A DNA stretch of 64,000 bases from Acidobacteriota bacterium (GTDB lineage Bacteria; Acidobacteriota; Holophagae; Acanthopleuribacterales; Acanthopleuribacteraceae). A model generated the notes under the pieces. It saw nothing but the letters and a program-made list of their open reading frames with translations. It was not told where the DNA came from and searched no databases. Positions 51,156 through 64,000 of the stretch are shown here, one piece after another (position 1 is the stretch's first letter; the number at the start of each line of letters is the position of its first letter). The DNA is taken from the NCBI GenBank assembly GCA_020439745.1, contig JAGQSC010000015.1, forward strand, positions 248,001-312,000, written 5' to 3'. Both the position numbers and the translations under genes were made by a program.

Positions 51156-51881
51156 TCATGCGGGCTGCCCAAATGCCTCAAGCAGTAGACGCGGTAGTGC
51201 TAATCGCGCAGGTTCGCGCAACACCAGGTGTGCCGAGGCGCTGAAGGGCGTGGGTTCCGGGTTGATTTCTACGGTAAAGGCTCCGAGTTCGCGGGCTTTG
51301 AACGGTAACATGGCGGCCGGCTGTACCAGAGTCGACGTACCTATAGACAAAAAAACATCGGCGGTTTCGCAGACCCGAAACGAAGCTTCCAAGGCTTCTC
51401 GCGGCAGTGACTCACCAAACCAAACCACGTCAGGACGCAAATAGGCGCCACACAAAGGACACGGCGGCGGGCTGTGATCGGGGAATTCCTCGCAAGGTTC
51501 ACCACATTCACTGCAGCGAATGCGGGTGATATTGCCGTGCAGTTCAATCACGGTTCGGCTGCCGGCACGATGGTGCAACCCATCCACGTTCTGCGTGATC
51601 AAGGTCATTTTTGGGATCTTCATTTCAAGCTCGGCAAGGGCTATATGGCCCTCATGGGGTGCCGCCTTTTGAACCAACCCTCTCCGCCAGGCATACCAAT
51701 CCCAGACACGGGATGGATGGGCTGCAAAGGCCTGCGGCGTGGCTAGATCCTCTGGCCTGAACTGGGCCCAAAGGCCAGTTTGGGCATCACGGAAGGTAGG
51801 CACGCCGCTTTCAGCTGACATGCCGGCCCCGGTAAAGACCACCAGGTGCTTGGCAGCCTTCAATCGTTCAATCAGATTCAT
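51156..51881 (-). CDS. cobB: Sir2-family NAD-dependent protein deacylase
   Basis: 241 residues. FTGAGMSAESGVPTFRD binds NAD; TQNVDGLH and the catalytic His115 (ELHGN) follow; the zinc uses Cys123, Cys126, Cys141 and Cys144. A Tyr63-x-x-Arg66 pair (WYAWRR) is the SIRT5/CobB-type signature for succinyl/malonyl lysine. The start at 51881 has AAGGA 8 bases upstream and overlaps the 5-oxoprolinase gene by 14 bp, so the two are coupled. Confidence 0.92.
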   Translation of the reverse strand: MNLIERLKAAKHLVVFTGAGMSAESGVPTFRDAQTGLWAQFRPEDLATPQAFAAHPSRVWDWYAWRRGLVQKAAPHEGHIALAELEMKIPKMTLITQNVDGLHHRAGSRTVIELHGNITRIRCSECGEPCEEFPDHSPPPCPLCGAYLRPDVVWFGESLPREALEASFRVCETADVFLSIGTSTLVQPAAMLPFKARELGAFTVEINPEPTPFSASAHLVLREPARLALPRLLLEAFGQPA

Positions 51882-54800
51882 TCGACCCGTCCTTCTCGCC
51901 AAAACCGCCACCGCCCGGTGTTTTGATCAATATGCGGTCTCCTTCTTGAACATCGACCTCATCACAGCCCTGCAGTGGCTGCCAAGTACCGTCCTTTGGC
52001 CGCCAACTATTTTGGCCGGGCAACCCATCCGAACCACCCATTATCCCGAAAGGTCGGGTTTTGCGGCGAGTCGTCAGTAGGCTGCAGGTCATCGGTCGCA
52101 GGAACATCAGTTCGCGGACGGCGCCATCGCCACCGCAGAACCGTCCCAAACCACCACTCCCCCGTCGAATCCCAAACTGGAGCAGACGGACGGGGAACAC
52201 ACGTTCTAGGATTTCTGGATCCGTGAGGCGAGAGTTGGTCATATGCGAATGGATAGCGTCGGCTCCGTGGAACCCAGGTCCAGCGCCCGTACCCCCGCAA
52301 ATAGTCTCGTAATACTGCAGCGTGCCATCCCCAAAACTGAAATTGTTCATGGTGCCTTGACTGGCCGCACAGGTGCCAAACGCCGCAAGTAACAGGTCGA
52401 CAATATGTTGGCTTGTCTCCACGTTTCCGGCCGCCACGGCGGCACCCGGTCCGGGATTTAGAACCGAACCCGCAGGTACACGTAAGCGCACAGGCTCCAT
52501 ACAACCCGCATTTAAGGGAATGGCCTCCGAAATCAATGTACGCAGCACATACAAAACAGCAGCACGGGTGATGGCAAGGGGGGCATTCATGTTGTCGTCG
52601 GTCTGGGCCGACGTGCCTTCAAAATCGATCGTCCAAAGGCCATCTGTTCTGCGCGAGATGTCCACGCTGATCACAGCCCCATTGTCCATAGCCAATGACC
52701 AACGGCTCGGCCGAATACCACAGAGCGCACGGCGAATGCTTGCGGCGGCATGGTTGCGAATATGAGTCATATAGGCGAGCAGGGATGCCCAACCCACTCG
52801 CTCAGCCCAAGCAAGTAAATCTCTGCGGCCCCGCATATTGGCCGCGATCTGTGCCTTCAAGTCGGACAGGTTCACCGAAGGGTTCCGAGCAGGGTAGCGA
52901 TGGCTGCTGAGATGTTCCCGTACCTCGTCCGAAAGAAAACGACCCTGTGACTTGATCAAAAACCCACTAAAGACCACGCCTTCTTCTTCGAGTGTCTTGC
53001 TTGCCGAAGGCATGGAGCCGGGAACCGTGCCGCCGATATCGGCATGATGACCGCGTGACGCCACGAAAAACGCCAAATCGCCTGCTACAAAGACGGCTGT
53101 GACCACCGTGATGTCGGGCAAATGGGTGCCCCCCATGGCTGGATCGTTGACCGCGTAACAATCCCCGTCCGAAAAGGGCGTTTCTCGTTCAATCAGCGCC
53201 TTGACGCACATGTCCATGGAACCAATGTGAACCGGCATATGCGGTGCATTGGCGATCAAACGACCCACCGAATCAAAAATGGCACAGGAAAAATCCAGTC
53301 GTTCTTTGATATTCACACTCATGGCCGTCTGTTTGAGGACGACGCCCATGGATTCTGCGACTTCCTGGAAACCATTTCGGTAAACCTCAAGTAGGACCGG
53401 GTCAATAGCCGTTTGAGTGTTCGTGCCTTTTCGGGCAGATACACGATGTAGATCGATCGAACCGTCACTCAGCAGCTGCGCTTGCCAGCCCGGATGTACC
53501 GAAACCGTGGTGTGCGTATCCACCAGCAATGCTGGACCGTCGATGACGGCACCAGATGCCAATCCCGCCGTCCAAACAACTCGGTATTCGTAGGTGTGCC
53601 CGTTGTAATAGACGGATCGATGGGAAGAATTGGGGGCCGATCCCTCGATCCTGATGGCGGGAATCAGATGCCCGATCCGTGCGTAATGGGACAAGCGAGC
53701 GTATTCAATCACCAACGGCCTGTGCTCGGATTCCAGTCCGTACCTCTGTTCATAGCCCCGTTCAAATTCATGCCGCAAGGTGGCTTCAGCGGAAAAGGGA
53801 ACTTCCACTACGTCATCCATACCATCAACGCGCAACCCCAACATCACTTCTTTCCTGCGGGAGTCGTCTGCAGCGATTTCTAATTCCCGATCCAAGTCGC
53901 CCTCGATCTGGTCACACCAACCTGAAATAGACTTCAGTGATGCCTGAGTAAGGGGCGTGCAAAAGGTCCGCTGTCGCGTGGCACTGATCTCAGCCTCGCT
54001 CATGCCCACAGCCGAAAGGAGACTGGCATGCGCAGGTACCATCACTCGATCCATGTCCATCTCATCGGCGATCATGGTGGCGTATTGGCCTGCGGCTCCC
54101 CCGAAACCCAGCAACACCAATTGGCGTGCATCCTGGCCACGTGCCAGAGTGACACGCCTGATCGCGCTGGCCATTTGGTGCACGGCGATCTGAACATAAC
54201 CAAATGCGAGCCGTTCCAAACTGTAGTCCTCATTGAGATCCGTCAATAGCTCGGCTAATGCCACCCTTGCCGCTTTTTCGTTCAGTGGTTGATCGGCATT
54301 GGGTCCAAAGCAGGCTGGAAAATGTTGGGCATCCAAGAAACCCAAAACAACCTGGCAATCCGTCAATGCGGCCGGACCGCCCCTGCCATAGCAAGCCGGA
54401 CCGGGATCGGCGCCAGCGGATTGGGGTCCGACTACCATACGACCATTTGTCGTCTTTAGGAGAGAACCGCCACCTGCCGCAATCGTGTGGATCATTAACG
54501 TCGGGCTGTGTACGCGAACGCCATCGATATCGGTTTCCAAGCGAATCTCAAAGCGGTCAGCAAAAGCGGCGACATCCGTGGAGGTTCCGCCCATGTCCAA
54601 CGACACAAATCCGCGGATGCCATGTCTTCTGGCAACTGCTGCAGTGCCCGCAACACCTCCCGCAGGACCTGACAAAAGACTTTCATGGGGCAAGAACCGC
54701 GATAGGCTCGTAAGTTCACCCCGCGACGTCATAGCCCAAGCACGTCCCTTCCCTATGGCTTGTTGCGTACGCCTGACGAATTCCATCAATTTGTTGCTCA

Positions 54801-55416
54801 AGTAAGCATTCAGGACGGCGGTGTCGCTGCGCGGCAACCATTTCACCATGCGACTTACATCCGTGGAACAGGTCACCCACTTGAAACCGAGATTCATGGC
54901 TATTTCCGCTGCACGTCGCTCATGGGAGGGATTGGCATAGGCATTGACAAATCCGATAGCCAGCACCGTGTATCCTTTTTCAAGTGCTGCAGTCAACGAG
55001 GCTTGTAGGCTGGGCTCGTCGAGTGGGTCTATTACGCGACCTTGCGCATCCATGCGCTCGCGGGCCTCAACCACTGAGTCATAGAGCGGTTGCGTCCTTT
55101 GGATATTCAGATCGAAGAGATCAGTTCGATGCTGGGTACCTATCAAAAGCGCGTCGGCGAAACCGGAGGTCGTCAGAAACAGCACCCTTTCGCCACGTCG
55201 CTCCAGCAATGCATTGGTTCCGACGGTGGTGCCTATCTTGAGTCCGGTCACGGGCGCCTCACCCGCCAATTGCTGAACAGCGCGAGTGATTGGATCCTTA
55301 CCCGCTAATGAGCGCGACGGGAGTTTTTCCAGGTGGATTCCGCCTTGTGGATCCATAGCCACCACATCGGTAAACGTACCGCCTTGATCGATCCAAAACC
55401 ACCATCCGCGATCCAT
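51868..55416 (-). CDS. 5-oxoprolinase, HyuA-HyuB fused (OPLAH type)
   Basis: 1182 residues; ATP-dependent opening of 5-oxoproline (or hydantoins) to glutamate. The N-terminal half (HyuA) has DQGGTFTDVV, GTTVGTNALLER and SLDMGGTSTDVA; the C-terminal half (HyuB) starts about residue 680 (PVLLEVYRNGFQEVAESMG) with GGTHLPDITV and GGDGAVRELMFL. The fused form is typical of eukaryotes and some bacteria. ATG at 55416 preferred; GTG two codons earlier is possible. Cytoplasmic. Confidence 0.93.
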   Translation of the reverse strand: MDRGWWFWIDQGGTFTDVVAMDPQGGIHLEKLPSRSLAGKDPITRAVQQLAGEAPVTGLKIGTTVGTNALLERRGERVLFLTTSGFADALLIGTQHRTDLFDLNIQRTQPLYDSVVEARERMDAQGRVIDPLDEPSLQASLTAALEKGYTVLAIGFVNAYANPSHERRAAEIAMNLGFKWVTCSTDVSRMVKWLPRSDTAVLNAYLSNKLMEFVRRTQQAIGKGRAWAMTSRGELTSLSRFLPHESLLSGPAGGVAGTAAVARRHGIRGFVSLDMGGTSTDVAAFADRFEIRLETDIDGVRVHSPTLMIHTIAAGGGSLLKTTNGRMVVGPQSAGADPGPACYGRGGPAALTDCQVVLGFLDAQHFPACFGPNADQPLNEKAARVALAELLTDLNEDYSLERLAFGYVQIAVHQMASAIRRVTLARGQDARQLVLLGFGGAAGQYATMIADEMDMDRVMVPAHASLLSAVGMSEAEISATRQRTFCTPLTQASLKSISGWCDQIEGDLDRELEIAADDSRRKEVMLGLRVDGMDDVVEVPFSAEATLRHEFERGYEQRYGLESEHRPLVIEYARLSHYARIGHLIPAIRIEGSAPNSSHRSVYYNGHTYEYRVVWTAGLASGAVIDGPALLVDTHTTVSVHPGWQAQLLSDGSIDLHRVSARKGTNTQTAIDPVLLEVYRNGFQEVAESMGVVLKQTAMSVNIKERLDFSCAIFDSVGRLIANAPHMPVHIGSMDMCVKALIERETPFSDGDCYAVNDPAMGGTHLPDITVVTAVFVAGDLAFFVASRGHHADIGGTVPGSMPSASKTLEEEGVVFSGFLIKSQGRFLSDEVREHLSSHRYPARNPSVNLSDLKAQIAANMRGRRDLLAWAERVGWASLLAYMTHIRNHAAASIRRALCGIRPSRWSLAMDNGAVISVDISRRTDGLWTIDFEGTSAQTDDNMNAPLAITRAAVLYVLRTLISEAIPLNAGCMEPVRLRVPAGSVLNPGPGAAVAAGNVETSQHIVDLLLAAFGTCAASQGTMNNFSFGDGTLQYYETICGGTGAGPGFHGADAIHSHMTNSRLTDPEILERVFPVRLLQFGIRRGSGGLGRFCGGDGAVRELMFLRPMTCSLLTTRRKTRPFGIMGGSDGLPGQNSWRPKDGTWQPLQGCDEVDVQEGDRILIKTPGGGGFGEKDGSNESD

Positions 55417-55492
55417 AACCACATTCTACTATGCGTCCATTATCAGCGGCTTGCGGTAGAATGACTGCCAAATCACTTCTAGAGGAACGCTC

Positions 55493-56692: not shown

Positions 56693-57454
56693 ATGCGCGT
56701 ACTACTAGCTTTATGCCTTATCAATACGAGCCTAATTGGCCAGCAGCCTACCCAAAAACAGTCTTCTGGTTTGGGATTTACGCTGGCTTTGGATTACATG
56801 GACATGTACATGTTCCGGGGGAGAGTTTTGGATCCGGATACGTCTCTGCAGGGACGTTTTACCCTGGGCCTGGGTTCCTGGAGTTACAACCTGTTCCATC
56901 ATGCGGGGTCCAGCTCCACATCTGAGGTTCCCACTTTTGAGGCATTCGAAGAGTACACCCATTCTGTCGAATACACGACGGTACGTGGCAACGCGGTGAA
57001 CACGATGGGATACCGGCTCTACACGTATTCTGCCATGTGGCCTGACACCCAGGAGATTTTCTATCGCATCGCTCACTACAACCGATGGAACCCCAGTTAC
57101 GGCGTATCGTACGACATCGAGGCCTACCGCGGCACCTATATCGACTTTTCACTGTCGAGGTTCTTCCCGCTCTCCATTGCCAGTCGGTTGGAGTTTGACT
57201 TCGATTTGGGACTTTCCACAGGCATGGAAGAGAAAAGCAACCGTCAGGGCCAGATCTTCGAATACGGGCCCTATTCAGAAACGCTTAACCACGGATCGCT
57301 GGGCGTGAAATACCAGTGGGCCATTACGCCCAAATTGACGTTTCATGCAGGTTATATCTATCAACACGCTTTCGATGACAAGCTGAGGGATGATCCACTG
57401 ACCGGCGAACACAACGACTACTGGAGTGCTGGTTTACGGTTGTTGATGCCTTGA
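56693..57454 (+). CDS. TorF-like outer-membrane beta-barrel protein
   Basis: 253 residues. A signal peptide (MRVLLALCLINTSLIG) precedes an alternating-strand barrel: LDYMDMYMFRGRVLDPD and the C-terminal WSAGLRLLMP strand. The MYMFRG phrase and repeated YxxY strands match the family of TorF putative porins. Its TGA stop sits in TGATCA, directly abutting the reverse stop of the DUF92 gene. GGAG precedes the ATG. Confidence 0.75.
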   Translation: MRVLLALCLINTSLIGQQPTQKQSSGLGFTLALDYMDMYMFRGRVLDPDTSLQGRFTLGLGSWSYNLFHHAGSSSTSEVPTFEAFEEYTHSVEYTTVRGNAVNTMGYRLYTYSAMWPDTQEIFYRIAHYNRWNPSYGVSYDIEAYRGTYIDFSLSRFFPLSIASRLEFDFDLGLSTGMEEKSNRQGQIFEYGPYSETLNHGSLGVKYQWAITPKLTFHAGYIYQHAFDDKLRDDPLTGEHNDYWSAGLRLLMP

Positions 57455-58762
57455 TCAGATCAAAATGAACAGAGCCGCGAGACCCGCTGAAGCCGTATTG
57501 GCGAAGTTCACGCTATCGTTGGACATGGCGCCGGTTCGTTGAATGGTTGCGCCCAAGACCGAATCGACCAGGTTCCCAATGATGCCGGCAGCGGCTATGA
57601 CGCCGGCCGACTTCAGGTTGCCTGTCCAAGCGAGCCATACCAGGCCAACGATTAGCGCACCGAGCACCCCAAACAAGCTACCTTCCAAGCTGATCACCCC
57701 GTCTAGCCCTCTTTGTTCTTGTTTGAACGTGAGGATATTGACGTATCGCCTGCCGTAGACGTTACCCAACTCCGAAGACAGCGTGTCGGCTGTCGCCGAT
57801 GCTAGGCTTGCGGCCAGCATCACCTGACCCCATTCAGAAGGCATGGCCGCCAACCATACTGTCACACCGCACATCGCAGAGAATCCGCCATTGGCGAGCG
57901 CATGGCGAATGGATCTCCGGCCTTCATTTTCCTGCGCCAAGCCCGCAGCAGCCTTGGCTCTTTTGCCGAAAGAGGATGCAGTAGACCCCAACACAAAAAA
58001 GGTAAAAAGAACAGACAGACCCGCCAGCCCAGATCCCAAGAACACACAAGCTGCCAACAGTCCGCCGACGAGCCCACCCCAAAAGTCGATTTTCCGGGAG
58101 GCAATACTACCGATGACAAGCAGAATCACCAAACATGCGCCCCACAGCCAATCAGGTGGCAGCGTTGGTTGATGGGCAGAGGCAGCAAGCCAGCTTACCA
58201 ACGATGCGGTCAGGGGGACTGCCAGATTGTCGTCGATCAATCCGGGTAAGGTCTCGGCCCAGGCAGCAAAAACCATGGCACACACCACGGGGAACACCCA
58301 TCCCATCAGGGAGAGTCCAAGACGTGCATCTTCCGGCAAGCAGTAAAGCAAGAAAAGGGTGCCCAAAGATCCAAACGCGACAAACGCGAAGCTTCCTGTC
58401 ATCGATTTCTCAGGTCGCCAAGGCACAGGCAGTCGGCCAAAACGGGCACCCATGAGTCCGGCAAAACCATCACCGATGGCCATGGCACCCCATCCCACAG
58501 CCAAAAACACCTGAGCTCGATAAAAGATAAGGCTCAACAACAGCAGTACCGCAGGATAGAGGACAATTCCCAGTGCAAATCCACGTTGTCGATCCAGATC
58601 ACGCTCAAGCGATCGCCCGGTGATGAGAGGAAGCACAAAGAGATTGTTGATGAGCGCCAGGGCACAACACAAACAGATGGCCCAAGGCGGCACCCGACCA
58701 ATCAACAAGGCAAATGCAACCATGGAGATATGCACCAGCTTGCGTTTGATTTCTGTGCTCAA
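57455..58762 (-). CDS. polyprenol/phytol kinase-like domain fused to a DUF92 domain
   Basis: 435 residues, highly hydrophobic. Residues 1-200 are a CTP-dependent dolichol/phytol kinase-type domain (KRKLVHISMV, AIGDGFAGLMGARFGR, EKSMTGSFAFV), like VTE5. Residues from about 210 form a DUF92 (TMEM19/VTE6) domain (LASATADTLSSELGNVYGRR, DGVISLEGSLFGVLGAL, GIIGNLVDSVLGATIQR). In plants VTE5 and VTE6 act in sequence on phytol. The TTG at 58762 overlaps the lptD stop as TTGA; an ATG 54 bases earlier would add the shadow of lptD. Confidence 0.85.
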   Translation of the reverse strand: MSTEIKRKLVHISMVAFALLIGRVPPWAICLCCALALINNLFVLPLITGRSLERDLDRQRGFALGIVLYPAVLLLLSLIFYRAQVFLAVGWGAMAIGDGFAGLMGARFGRLPVPWRPEKSMTGSFAFVAFGSLGTLFLLYCLPEDARLGLSLMGWVFPVVCAMVFAAWAETLPGLIDDNLAVPLTASLVSWLAASAHQPTLPPDWLWGACLVILLVIGSIASRKIDFWGGLVGGLLAACVFLGSGLAGLSVLFTFFVLGSTASSFGKRAKAAAGLAQENEGRRSIRHALANGGFSAMCGVTVWLAAMPSEWGQVMLAASLASATADTLSSELGNVYGRRYVNILTFKQEQRGLDGVISLEGSLFGVLGALIVGLVWLAWTGNLKSAGVIAAAGIIGNLVDSVLGATIQRTGAMSNDSVNFANTASAGLAALFILI

Positions 58763-60819
58763 AGGCGAAACCCCAGTTCGCCCAAGTTGCGAAGCGTGAT
58801 GCCCAACTGAAGCCATTGGCGATCGGCCTCCACATCGGAGGTGAATGGTGTCTGAATAAAGCGAAACACCGAGCCAAGACAGGCCCCGTTATAGTTGAAC
58901 TGTATTTCCCGGCTCTTAAAGTCGCTGATACTGAAATCGTAGTCAAAGATGACGCGTATGTGTACGCGAGACTGGAGCAGTCTGAGGTCTGTGGCAGCAA
59001 GGAGACTGTCTTGCATCACGTCCGTCAAATCGCGACGAACGTACCCCATATAGCCTGAAAACTTGCCGCGCTTGACGGTGCCATACATGGTTGTGGTGGC
59101 GAACACGTCACGTTCCAAATCGTATTCAACAAGACCGTTCAGGTAGTAACCCTTGTTGTCGCCCAAGCGGAACGCCAACTCGATGGGTTGCTGATCGGAC
59201 CCTTCAAATAGCTGCTGACTCAGATCTACTTGTAGGTAAGGCAACATGACACCCGAAGAACCCACGAAGACTCTCGATTGGACAAACCAGGAGCCCTGCA
59301 GTCCAGACATTAATTGGCGATCCAACCTTAGGTCGAGTTCATGGATTTGAATCCCACGAAACAACCGCTCGGGATCTTCCTCGCCGTATTGAACGGTAAC
59401 ACCGTAGTCGATCAGGTGCGCAAACCCCCGGTCCTTTCCTTTGAGTTGGCGACCGAGGCGCGGACCCATCACTGTTGCAAACGCGTAGCCACCCTTGCGA
59501 TTGCGGCTGCCCGACTCTGAGCCTTCAAACAAAACGCCTCGGTAGCCAAGACCGTAGCGGCTATGAAGATAACGACCCAAGTGGTTGGCACGGCTGACTT
59601 CGGTTTCCAAGCCCAATCTCCAAGCATCATCGTTGAGCGCATCGGGGCCTAGATCCACAAAACGCACTTGATCCATATAAGAACGATGATTGAGATAGAA
59701 ACCCGCTCCCAGATGGGTCTCGGGTTGTATCAGGCGAACCGATGGCAAAAAGCGAATTTCGCTGATTCGATCGACATCGGAGAGGATGCGGCGGTTTTGT
59801 TGCAGGTCCAGCTGCAGGCTCATGAGTCCAATACGCTTCGAAAATCCGGCGTATGCATTGTAGTCCCGAACACGGGTGCGTTCCGTATCCACCAGATAAT
59901 CGCGATCGACCTGAAAATCTGACCCTTCATCCAGACGCAGGACCATCTGACCGCCCCAAGCCTTTTGGCGATGAGAGCCGTGTAAGCGATAGCGATTCTC
60001 GCTGATTTGTTCACCCGCCTCTGTAGGTTTGGTGTCGGCGTCTCCGATCACACCATCGCGCATGTATTGGCCTTCGAGAAAGCCCGACATGTCATGCGTG
60101 GGTGCGTAGCGGAACAGTGCATCGGCTCGCATGCCTGCCTTTTCCAGAACATACGGGGTCAAAGTCACATCAAAATCATCCCGCGGTGCCCAGTAAAAGG
60201 GCACGCCGGCGTAGATCCCGTTGCGGTCAGAAGCACCTGTCTCGGGCACAAGAATGCCGCTTCTTCGCTCTTGAAAGGCGGGCAACCACATGGCGGGAAA
60301 ATAAAGAAGTGGAATGTTCATGATGCGGAACGATGCATTCTTGACAAGGGCATAGCCCTCACGTTTCACGCGTGCGGAACCGATCTTCAGACTCCAGTGA
60401 TTGATGGGCTGGTTGCATGCCGTTAATACGCCACGGGTTATCTGTAATTGGTCACGGCTAAGAATGTCTAATCGATTGCCCACAAAAAAGAGTTCATTGC
60501 CCAATTGAACCGAAACATCTTCAAAAAATCCCGTTTGAGAACCGAGGTCGAACACGGCGTGTTGTGCAGCAATTTCCACCAGTCCCATGGAAGCCGTGTA
60601 GTCGATTTTGATGTTGCCATCTGCAATGACCGTTTGTTGTTGAGGATCGTATTCGGCGCGGTCAGCTGTCAGTAGAAACAGGTTTGGGCTTTCCATTTTG
60701 AAATAGGGCTCGTAGATAAACCGCCCATCGGGTAAGCGCCTGTTTTCCTTGGTGGTGATCGTCACTTGCACGTCTTGTAACCAAATCGACGTGCTGATGA
60801 GGGGTAGCAGCAACCACAT
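58759..60819 (-). CDS. lptD: LPS-assembly protein LptD (OstA-like)
   Basis: 686 residues; outer-membrane barrel that inserts lipopolysaccharide. A signal (MWLLLPLISTSIWL) is followed by an OstA-like beta-jellyroll (about 30-130: TADRAEYDPQQQTVIADGNI) and a long barrel ending FRL. QPINHWSLKIGSARVKREGYALVKNASFRI and PLLYFPAMWLPAFQERRSGIL (in pieces) are classic. Two bases after the upstream gene; coupled to the kinase fusion by TTGA. Confidence 0.92.
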   Translation of the reverse strand: MWLLLPLISTSIWLQDVQVTITTKENRRLPDGRFIYEPYFKMESPNLFLLTADRAEYDPQQQTVIADGNIKIDYTASMGLVEIAAQHAVFDLGSQTGFFEDVSVQLGNELFFVGNRLDILSRDQLQITRGVLTACNQPINHWSLKIGSARVKREGYALVKNASFRIMNIPLLYFPAMWLPAFQERRSGILVPETGASDRNGIYAGVPFYWAPRDDFDVTLTPYVLEKAGMRADALFRYAPTHDMSGFLEGQYMRDGVIGDADTKPTEAGEQISENRYRLHGSHRQKAWGGQMVLRLDEGSDFQVDRDYLVDTERTRVRDYNAYAGFSKRIGLMSLQLDLQQNRRILSDVDRISEIRFLPSVRLIQPETHLGAGFYLNHRSYMDQVRFVDLGPDALNDDAWRLGLETEVSRANHLGRYLHSRYGLGYRGVLFEGSESGSRNRKGGYAFATVMGPRLGRQLKGKDRGFAHLIDYGVTVQYGEEDPERLFRGIQIHELDLRLDRQLMSGLQGSWFVQSRVFVGSSGVMLPYLQVDLSQQLFEGSDQQPIELAFRLGDNKGYYLNGLVEYDLERDVFATTTMYGTVKRGKFSGYMGYVRRDLTDVMQDSLLAATDLRLLQSRVHIRVIFDYDFSISDFKSREIQFNYNGACLGSVFRFIQTPFTSDVEADRQWLQLGITLRNLGELGFRL

Positions 60820-60821
60820 GA

Positions 60822-61409
60822 TCAGCGCCCATGTCGCAAGGTGAAGAAGCCGCGAATCACATGTGCATCGATTCCGTAATAGATCTCATCCAGTACAAAT
60901 TCAAGCTGCCCCCGCGAGAATTTCCTCTTGCCAAATTCGGGCAGAAAGACCGCCAGCTGCCTTTCGGTCTGCCTGGGTTTCACGACTATTGAATACCGCG
61001 CCACAGCTTGAGCCAGTAATTCTTCGCCCGGTTCCGGAATTGGTTGTGCACCCGACATCAAATCTGTTGGCTGAACCAGCCGGGCCTTTGGTCGAATACC
61101 AGACCACAACATGGCACGGTCGCAATTGAAGTGCATATCTTGATCGCCCAAGTTGCGAACCCTCACTTCAAAAGGAGCCATAGCTGCCATGAGCTCACTG
61201 ATTTGAGGTCTTTTGAGGAACTCGTCTTCAACGCCGCGGGCAATGAGCCAGGCACGGAATTCGTCAGGCGCAAGTGGCCGAATGGTCACCTCAAAATCGA
61301 GCGACTCGAATACCAACGAGCCATCGCTGATTTGATAACCTTTGGTTTCCGAACGCGCCACATCGACCACGCTGACTTGCGCCAAGAGAAAAGACAATAT
61401 GATCGACAA
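60822..61409 (-). CDS. exported hypothetical protein upstream of lptD
   Basis: 195 residues from TTG at 61409, with GGGAG 8 bases upstream. A hydrophobic N-terminus (SIILSFLLAQVSVV) fits a signal peptide. The body (VTIRPLAPDEFRAWLIARG, FEVRVRNLGDQDMHFNCDRAML) is beta-rich with no known motif. It is directly coupled to lptD (2 nt), so a role in envelope assembly is a weak inference. First gene of that operon. Confidence 0.6.
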   Translation of the reverse strand: MSIILSFLLAQVSVVDVARSETKGYQISDGSLVFESLDFEVTIRPLAPDEFRAWLIARGVEDEFLKRPQISELMAAMAPFEVRVRNLGDQDMHFNCDRAMLWSGIRPKARLVQPTDLMSGAQPIPEPGEELLAQAVARYSIVVKPRQTERQLAVFLPEFGKRKFSRGQLEFVLDEIYYGIDAHVIRGFFTLRHGR

Positions 61410-61658
61410 TAGTAAGACTCCCTGAAGAACCCTGTTCCGAATGGCTTATATTACGCCAACCCATTTAGATGCTACAATGAATAGGGCATCTCAAGAATGA
61501 GTCCATGGGGTCGGCGTGAAGGCCTCGGGTACAGGGAAAATCCTGACCGTGGATCGAACATCGGCTTTTTACATCAACCCAAATATGTGGTAAGAATGGT
61601 AGCAAGTTCTCGAATGAGTATTTATTCGTATCTTTCGCACTTTCAATAGGTTGTATTG
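61410..61658 (+). other. 249-bp divergent region; possible structured leader
   Basis: A TACAAT hexamer (61473-61478) could be a -10 for the gene at 61659, with a weak TTACGC -35. Within the ~175-nt leader, CAGG (61532-61535) and CCTG (61542-61545) plus flanking GGT/ACC around a bulged A form a stable hairpin. No known riboswitch consensus was recognised by eye. Confidence 0.3.
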
Positions 61659-64000
61659 ATGAGCAACGCGAAGATTCTTGTAGCTGACTATGATGATAAG
61701 AGTTTAGCTACCATCGACGAAGCCCTTAAAGAGTCGGGCTGCGCCACGATTCTTGTGCGCAATGGCAAAGATGCACTTGAGAAGATCCAGTCAGAGAAAC
61801 CCGATCTGTGCATTATTGACCCCATGCTTCCAGGCATTAACGGCTTCATGCTCAGCCAAAAGGCCCGCGGCATCAACCCTCGATTGCCCATTGTGATATC
61901 CACGGCCGTCTACAAGGGCGATAAGTATCAGCGTGACGCGAAAACCAAGTACGGCGTCAACGCATACCTCGAGAAGCCTTATTCCAATCAGCAACTGGTT
62001 CAAACCGTACAAGACCTAATCGCCAAGAATGACGCTCCGGTAAAGGCCTTGGACGAGTCAATCGAAAAGAAACTGGGATCCACGCTCACGGAATTGAGTT
62101 CCAACAAACCGCGCAAGAAGAGCAAAATGGACGTAGAGGCTAACGTCGATAAGTTGCTGGAACACACACTGAGCGGTATTGAAATTGGCGGACGTTCCAA
62201 GAAAGTCACGGTTTCCGTCTCGCCCCCGAAGATTCCGGCACCCAAGAAACCGGCCTTAGCGCCCAATCCAGCCCATGCCGATGACAGTGCTACCATGCGC
62301 GTGAGTGCTGACGACCTGAAGCGCGAGATGGAAAAAATCAAACAGGCGTTACCACCCAGTGAGCCCGCTCCAGCGAAAGAAGTGTTGCCGTCATTGACGC
62401 AGCCACAGCGAACACTCGAGGAAAAACTCACCAGCAGCGACATTTTCGGGGCACTGATCGATGATATCGAGTCAGACGATGAACCCAATGCGCCAGCAGC
62501 TCCCAGCACACAGATACCGCCTCCCATCAGCCAAAAAGAGAAACCCGAAGTCAAGGTGACGGTTGCGCCTCCCAAGCCCCAGGCCCCGCCCCCTAAGCCA
62601 GCACCCCAAGCTGAACCGGTTCGTGCGGCGGTGGAACCGGCCAAACCGGCGGTTGAACCTGCAAAAGCGACCCCATCACCTGAACCCCCTTCGCCTTCCG
62701 AGCTACCCAAGACACAGTCCTCCAAAAAGCGCCCCGAACTCAGCAAGACCAATGAATACCAGTTGCTTTCCAAGATTGCGGCAGGCGGCATGGCAGAAGT
62801 GTGGAAAGCGCGACTGATCGGCGAAAAGGGATTTGAAAAAATTGTCGCAATCAAGAAGATCCTGCCCCATCTAAGCGATAACGATGAATTCATCACCATG
62901 TTCATCGACGAGGCAAAGGTAGCGGCCAACCTCACGCACCCTAATATTGCCCAGATTTACGAATTGGGGAAAATGGGCAACTCGTTCTTTATCGCAATGG
63001 AGTATGTGTCCGGGAACAACCTGCGTACCGTGATCAACCTCTGTAATGAATTGGGCGTCACCGTTCCTCCAGAAATAGCCAGTTTCATTGGCATGAAGTT
63101 ATGTTCGGCACTGAACTACGCCCACACCAAGAAAGACTTTGGCAATCGCGACTTAAACATCGTCCATCGGGATATCTCGCCTCAAAACATCTTGATCTCG
63201 TCCGAAGGCGAGATCAAATTAGTGGATTTTGGCATTGCCAAAGCGTCCATTAAGGCCTCGCAAACCGTAGCGGGTTCGTTAAAGGGCAAACTGCTTTATA
63301 TGTCTCCTGAACAGGCGGACGGCAAGCCCATTGATGCTCGATCCGACATTTTCAGTCTCGGCAATGTGATGTATGAGTGCCTGACCGGCAAGAAATTGAT
63401 AGCCGGCGACAGCGAACTGTCCATTCTCAAGAACGTTCGCGATGCGGTGTTCCCAAAACCGTCATCACTCAACCCCCGAATTGTGCCCCAGCTTGAGAAG
63501 ATCATGATGGTTGCCCTAGCCAAAGAAGTCGACGAACGATTTGCCACCGCCAAGGATATGGAAAAAGATCTGAAAGATTTCATGAAGGCGGGCAAGTACC
63601 ACATCAATGAATCCGATGTCGCAGATTTCATGAAATCACTGTTCGCTAAGGACATGAGCAAACTTTCAGTACCTGAAGCCAAGAAGGCAAAACCACAGCC
63701 AACGCCTAAGCCTGCCGTGATCATGCCGGACACCGGACAGATACGGGCTCACGAGGCCGGCCATCCCATACTCAGTAAGCCAGCAAAGCAGGAATCGGGC
63801 GGGAAAGGTTGGCTGTATGGATTGCTTGCGGCAGTGGCGATTGTTGTAGCCGTCTTGAGTTACATGTTCTGGCCCAAGGGCGAAACATCTGCACAACCCC
63901 CAGTGGTGCAACAGGACGAGCAGACACTGCCTTTGCCTCAAACCGATACAGGGGCCGATAAACCCGTCCTTGATGAAGCGACCATAGAATCCATTAGGCA
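61659..64000 (+). CDS. receiver domain fused to a Ser/Thr kinase, 3' end beyond window
   Basis: At least 780 residues; the gene runs off the window. Residues 1-125 are a two-component receiver: acidic VADYDD, phospho-acceptor Asp54 (CIIDPMLPG), Thr82 and Lys106 (LEKPY). A long Pro/Ala/Lys-rich linker (about 130-365) leads to a kinase domain (about 368-645): glycine loop IAAGGMAEVW, HRDISPQN (about 502) and DFGIAKA (about 522). A TM helix follows at about 717-738. Starting ATG at 61659. Such hybrids are uncommon; see findings. Confidence 0.88.
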   Translation, partial: MSNAKILVADYDDKSLATIDEALKESGCATILVRNGKDALEKIQSEKPDLCIIDPMLPGINGFMLSQKARGINPRLPIVISTAVYKGDKYQRDAKTKYGVNAYLEKPYSNQQLVQTVQDLIAKNDAPVKALDESIEKKLGSTLTELSSNKPRKKSKMDVEANVDKLLEHTLSGIEIGGRSKKVTVSVSPPKIPAPKKPALAPNPAHADDSATMRVSADDLKREMEKIKQALPPSEPAPAKEVLPSLTQPQRTLEEKLTSSDIFGALIDDIESDDEPNAPAAPSTQIPPPISQKEKPEVKVTVAPPKPQAPPPKPAPQAEPVRAAVEPAKPAVEPAKATPSPEPPSPSELPKTQSSKKRPELSKTNEYQLLSKIAAGGMAEVWKARLIGEKGFEKIVAIKKILPHLSDNDEFITMFIDEAKVAANLTHPNIAQIYELGKMGNSFFIAMEYVSGNNLRTVINLCNELGVTVPPEIASFIGMKLCSALNYAHTKKDFGNRDLNIVHRDISPQNILISSEGEIKLVDFGIAKASIKASQTVAGSLKGKLLYMSPEQADGKPIDARSDIFSLGNVMYECLTGKKLIAGDSELSILKNVRDAVFPKPSSLNPRIVPQLEKIMMVALAKEVDERFATAKDMEKDLKDFMKAGKYHINESDVADFMKSLFAKDMSKLSVPEAKKAKPQPTPKPAVIMPDTGQIRAHEAGHPILSKPAKQESGGKGWLYGLLAAVAIVVAVLSYMFWPKGETSAQPPVVQQDEQTLPLPQTDTGADKPVLDEATIESIR

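Follow-up and report, generated by a model that had tools for sequence, protein, structure and literature searches.

The window, a 64,000-nucleotide stretch of contig JAGQSC010000015.1 from a member of the Acanthopleuribacteraceae (Acidobacteriota; assembly GCA_020439745.1), carries a single open frame at 57455..58762 on the minus strand, which also carries the motifs, lptD and the 195-aa gene described below. It has a TTG start and encodes a two-domain membrane protein of 435 aa, with a VTE5/Sec59-like N half and a DUF92 (VTE6-like) C half, which we call the fusion hereafter. The gene upstream is lptD (58759..60819; PF19838 at E 1.7e-10, together with LptD NCBIfam matches). The TTG of the fusion (58762-58760) and the TGA stop of lptD (58761-58759) overlap by 4 bp (TTGA), and a similar 4-bp overlap is found in the sister genome (G001, locus L003), where the fusion starts at 2805 and lptD stops at 2802. 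An alternative ATG at 58816, which would extend the overlap with lptD to 58 bp, is less likely as the start. Both the frame, with two kinase-type halves in one chain, and its translational coupling to lptD had been proposed in the first-pass annotation of this DNA, and both are present. Directly upstream of lptD, a 195-aa protein is encoded (60822..61409); its relatives precede lptD in four loci (L038, L040, L043 and L046), it has been kept with lptD in the window's family, and it is possibly a member of the lptD operon.

The C half (residues 205-435; 57458..58150) belongs to DUF92 (PF01940, COG1836; VTE6 type), at E 6e-43 and 147 bits against the curated cut-off of 27.5, and is a predicted prenyl-phosphate kinase. 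Residue conservation was counted over 72 aligned rows, consisting of the window protein and 71 relatives with the N half aligned along its length. In the ADTLSSELG motif (A325-G333; 57764..57790), D326, T327, E331 and G333 are kept in all 72 rows; in GLDGVISLEGS (G352-S362; 57677..57709), G355 and G361 are kept in 72 and S358 in 71; and in N415-x-x-x-N419 (57506..57520), N419 is kept in 72 and N415 in 67.

The N half (residues 1-200; 58163..58762), which had no match when searched against Pfam, is predicted from its conserved residues and fold model to be a CTP-dependent prenol kinase. It contains a charged clamp, R7-K8-x-x-H11 (58730..58744), in which R and H are kept in 71/72 rows and K or R in 63/72; a nucleotide/metal motif, GDGFAGLMG (G97-G105; 58448..58474); and a second acidic motif, D177-D178-N179..P183 (58214..58234). 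G97, D98, G123, E170 and D178 are invariant (72/72 rows), and R7, H11 and K119 are each kept in 71. All elements of the VTE5/PolK/Sec59 prenol-kinase signature (R-K-x-x-H clamp, GDGxA...G, K..G and DDN..VP) are therefore present, and such a clamp has been described for Plasmodium PolK (PMC10849223). The N-half profile matched the N half of a Bacteroidota-group fusion (L147) at 4e-16, and the latter matched CTP_transf_1 (PF01148) at 8.7e-5 and 22.9 bits, just under the cut-off of 24. The earlier assignment of the two halves as VTE5-like and VTE6-like is supported by the signature of the one and the DUF92 match of the other. The putative catalytic residues are intact in both halves.

The AlphaFold2 model of the whole protein had a mean pLDDT of 94.6 and a pTM of 0.89, and the N half folded alone (205 aa) gave a pLDDT of 93. 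A sequence search of the PDB with the fusion profile as query found no match, and Foldseek with the whole model found no significant one. With the N-half model, Foldseek ranked CdsA 4q2g first (probability 0.85 but E 0.09), and VIA ranked CarS 5guf (Z 8.3) and CdsA 4q2e (Z 7.1) first. With the whole model, the best VIA match of the C half was again CarS 5guf (Z 7.7, residues 307-435). For helical proteins, Z values of this size are modest. The VIA lists also contained MATE and TRIC rows, which were read as a common helical arrangement. Judging from the models, the CTP-transferase fold of CdsA and CarS is likely the closest structural match for both halves. Aligned to the N half with hhalign, the C half scored 38 (E 4.9e-5), whereas none of 40 block-shuffled controls exceeded 24 and the reversed profile reached 17; the alignment pairs D98 with D326 and KSMTGS with SLEGS, and by this comparison the two halves look homologous to each other.

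Among 297 sampled Acidobacteriota genomes, DUF92 was found over the cut-off in 119, and a fusion-size DUF92 frame, taken from all DUF92 matches, in 89. Of the best 30 loci, 29 can be aligned with the window protein over its full or nearly full length. The phylum that holds the Ignavibacteria relative has DUF92 in 122 of 198 genomes, 78 of them with frames of at least 450 codons among the matches listed; in three of five such frames examined, the N half matches the N profile. Further relatives come from Omnitrophota and from single MAGs that carry other phylum labels. Conservation of the two-domain protein in several phyla, at 29-58% identity, cannot be due to chance. Archaeal Sec59-DUF92 two-domain proteins (arCOG02245, e.g. 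Mbar_A3310 of Methanosarcina barkeri) had already been published in 2015 (PMC5898192). The unusualness of the fusion that the first-pass annotation implied is not supported by this publication or by the survey, and the idea of a rare fusion was discarded. The tree places the window protein among 16 rows that form a clade (100/100), made up of Acanthopleuribacteraceae and of Kapabacteria, Ignavibacteria and Bacteroidetes MAGs. This clade of mixed phyla sits on a long branch apart from the other Acidobacteriota, which suggests transfer of the fusion gene between phyla. Two relatives in the window's family are, as identical rows show, Sulfidibacter corallicola and Acanthopleuribacter pedis.

In Acidobacteriota the fusion usually lies directly upstream of a gene for a UbiA prenyltransferase, and 50 of the 55 fusion/UbiA pairs on the same contig are less than 400 bp apart. 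A search of these 297 genomes with a profile of the neighbouring UbiA gave 83 strong matches: the clade is present in 78 of the 89 that carry a fusion-size DUF92 frame, compared with 5 of the 208 others (Fisher 8e-53, uncorrected for shared ancestry). Four of these five do match DUF92, though in a frame that is short or cut, and in one (G073) of the 11 fusion-only genomes the contig ends just past the fusion. Other short standalone DUF92 proteins occur without this UbiA. In the window's family, the fusion carriers (G000, G001 and G003-G006) all have UbiA, and G002 has neither. In the window genome (G000), UbiA (G000:C58:327510-328520) lies outside the window on the same strand as the fusion, 21 kb from it, where it divergently adjoins a polyprenyl synthetase; the distance in the sister genome is similar. 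Three Bacteroidota-group genomes of the window's clade have the fusion and lack this UbiA, indicating that the fusion functions in a different context as well.

UbiA is nearest to the C20-prenyl group (PRK12884, ChlG, homogentisate phytyltransferase and GGGP transferase). In the PDB it matches DGGGPS 6m31 at 1e-18 and chlorophyll synthase at 3e-17, and its NCBIfam scores are all far below the curated cut-offs. Its motifs NQxxDxxxDxxNKPxRPL and KDFxDxEGD are, we presume, reminiscent of homogentisate phytyltransferases. An archaeal-type ether lipid route was ruled out because a search of 19 genomes for PcrB/GGGP synthase gave no full match, short weak ones only, and a tocopherol route was set aside since no tocopherol cyclase was found in the 16 genomes searched. 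The window genome also encodes a UbiA protein with an N-terminal HAD-like part (L105:835-2301, at about 26-27 kb of G000:C9), and this gene is overlapped by one for an FAD-type oxidoreductase (L105:2223-3581); the pair presumably resembles the mycobacterial decaprenylphosphoryl-ribose/DprE1 gene pair.

In 11 of 20 fusion loci, chosen mostly one per family, lptD lies on the same strand upstream of the fusion, in one of these 11 directly (L107; lptD, fusion, ubiA). A frequent order in Acidobacteriota is lptD - sugar SDRs - fusion - ubiA, and the profile counts around 64 fusion loci, limited by flanks of up to 4 kb, were 41 for SDR, 31 for RmlD-like, 28 for UbiA and 20 for LptD. SDR neighbours are absent from the window clade; four further loci of the window's family (L038/L138, L040, L043 and L046) have lptD directly before the fusion, and in L039 the fusion locus adjoins enolase. 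Neighbours of the Bacteroidota-group fusions vary (Mla genes, Mur ligase, asparaginase). In a Kapabacteria locus (L042:1376-3923), the fusion comes after an Mla-type ABC transporter operon (ATPase, MlaD and auxiliary lipoprotein). The lptD link is real and widespread in Acidobacteriota, and by itself is no demonstration of envelope function. Of the tie to envelope building suggested in the first-pass annotation, the linkage holds; the envelope role was read from gene order, and UbiA is the stronger partner.

These data make it reasonably probable, in our judgment, that the fusion is a bifunctional CTP-dependent enzyme of prenol to prenyl-diphosphate salvage that feeds the dedicated UbiA, where we infer the activities, chain length, step order and use by UbiA. 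The N half would use CTP to phosphorylate a free isoprenoid alcohol, most probably one of C15-C20 (geranylgeraniol, for example), after which a second phosphate would be added by the DUF92 half to give the prenyl diphosphate. With both sites in one chain, the diphosphate could be made without obligatory release of the monophosphate. In Acidobacteriota the UbiA, normally encoded in the adjacent gene and here 21 kb away, would use it to prenylate an acceptor. VTE5/VTE6-type families fit such consecutive-step salvage (PMC9782597, PMC10849223), and the route suggested in the earlier annotation is consistent with the sequence families of both halves. We found no measured activity of a bacterial fusion in the literature consulted.

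Among the closest known systems is the archaeal Sec59-DUF92 protein, which likewise has a dolichol-kinase-like domain followed by DUF92/COG1836 in one chain; that study put DUF92 in the cytidylyltransferase family, noted conserved aspartates in both domains and proposed an isoprenoid kinase step (PMC5898192). The archaeal context is uppS, whereas here it is lptD, sugar SDRs and the UbiA clade. VTE5 (phytol kinase, plant/cyanobacterial) and plant VTE6 (phytyl-phosphate kinase) share the family types and the same two proposed steps, but are separate proteins in plants, and no chlorophyll-derived phytol is expected here. The Plasmodium farnesol/geranylgeraniol kinase PolK (PMC10849223), likened to the N half by its R-K-x-x-H clamp, corresponds to the first step of the proposed route only and, unlike the fusion, has a single domain. 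The protein is thus a further case of a published architecture, and its context of UbiA clade and lptD looks new; none of the papers found in our searches describes an acidobacterial fusion/UbiA/lptD gene cluster.

CdsA (4q2e/4q2g) and CarS (5guf), the closest solved folds, would allow one or both halves to be cytidylyltransferases making a CDP-activated lipid instead of kinases. Their motifs differ from those of the fusion, which are of the prenol-kinase and DUF92 branches, their products are CDP-lipids, and the lack of a full GGGP synthase match in the 19 genomes leaves no archaeal-lipid route, so that we regard this as very improbable. Recycling of a long-chain carrier, in which the N half phosphorylates undecaprenol in a dolichol-kinase role for O-antigen/LPS or rhamnose glycan assembly, has a somewhat better claim but is still unlikely. 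It would explain the lptD and dTDP-sugar-type SDR genes (RmlD/epimerase) before the fusion in many Acidobacteriota, and it accords with the resemblance of the N half to Sec59/dolichol kinase and with the uppS genes next to archaeal DUF92 genes (PMC5898192); however, carrier recycling does not call for polyprenyl diphosphate from a DUF92 half, the UbiA partner lies closest to the C20 group, and SDR neighbours are missing from the window clade.

In plants, VTE5, VTE6 and VTE2 act towards prenylated quinols and antioxidants, and by analogy the fusion and UbiA may make such a non-envelope product, with lptD a bystander kept by gene-order inertia. This is a serious possibility, though we would not favor it outright; it is compatible with prenol salvage and opposes the envelope claim only. 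The far tighter link to UbiA and the assumed likeness of its motifs to homogentisate phytyltransferases speak for it, while the same-strand lptD in 11 of the 20 family-spread loci, the 4-bp overlap in the window genus and the lack of a tocopherol cyclase in the 16 genomes searched speak against it. More tentatively, lptD, sugar SDRs, fusion and UbiA may form one Acidobacteriota pathway that recharges prenols and attaches them to a lipid acceptor of the envelope or outer membrane, its output being coupled to LPS export.

To our knowledge, few prenol-salvage genes have been assigned by experiment, and the fusion makes both kinase steps addressable in one gene. The UbiA partner and the lptD linkage point to a specific consumer of its product within a phylum that is large and poorly studied, and hint at an undescribed prenylated product in Acidobacteria.

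Three further observations concern the surroundings of the fusion in the window. A convergent gene for a 253-aa protein without Pfam match (56693-57454) ends at the base adjoining the fusion stop and is kept in the sister genome (L003). At 51156-55422, a SIR2 family gene overlaps by 44 bp the end of a fused hydantoinase A/B gene (5-oxoprolinase-like, 1184 aa). Divergent from the lptD operon, the gene at 61656-63998 appears to encode a response-regulator receiver domain joined to a Ser/Thr protein kinase, and its relatives occupy the same place in L038, L040, L043 and L046.
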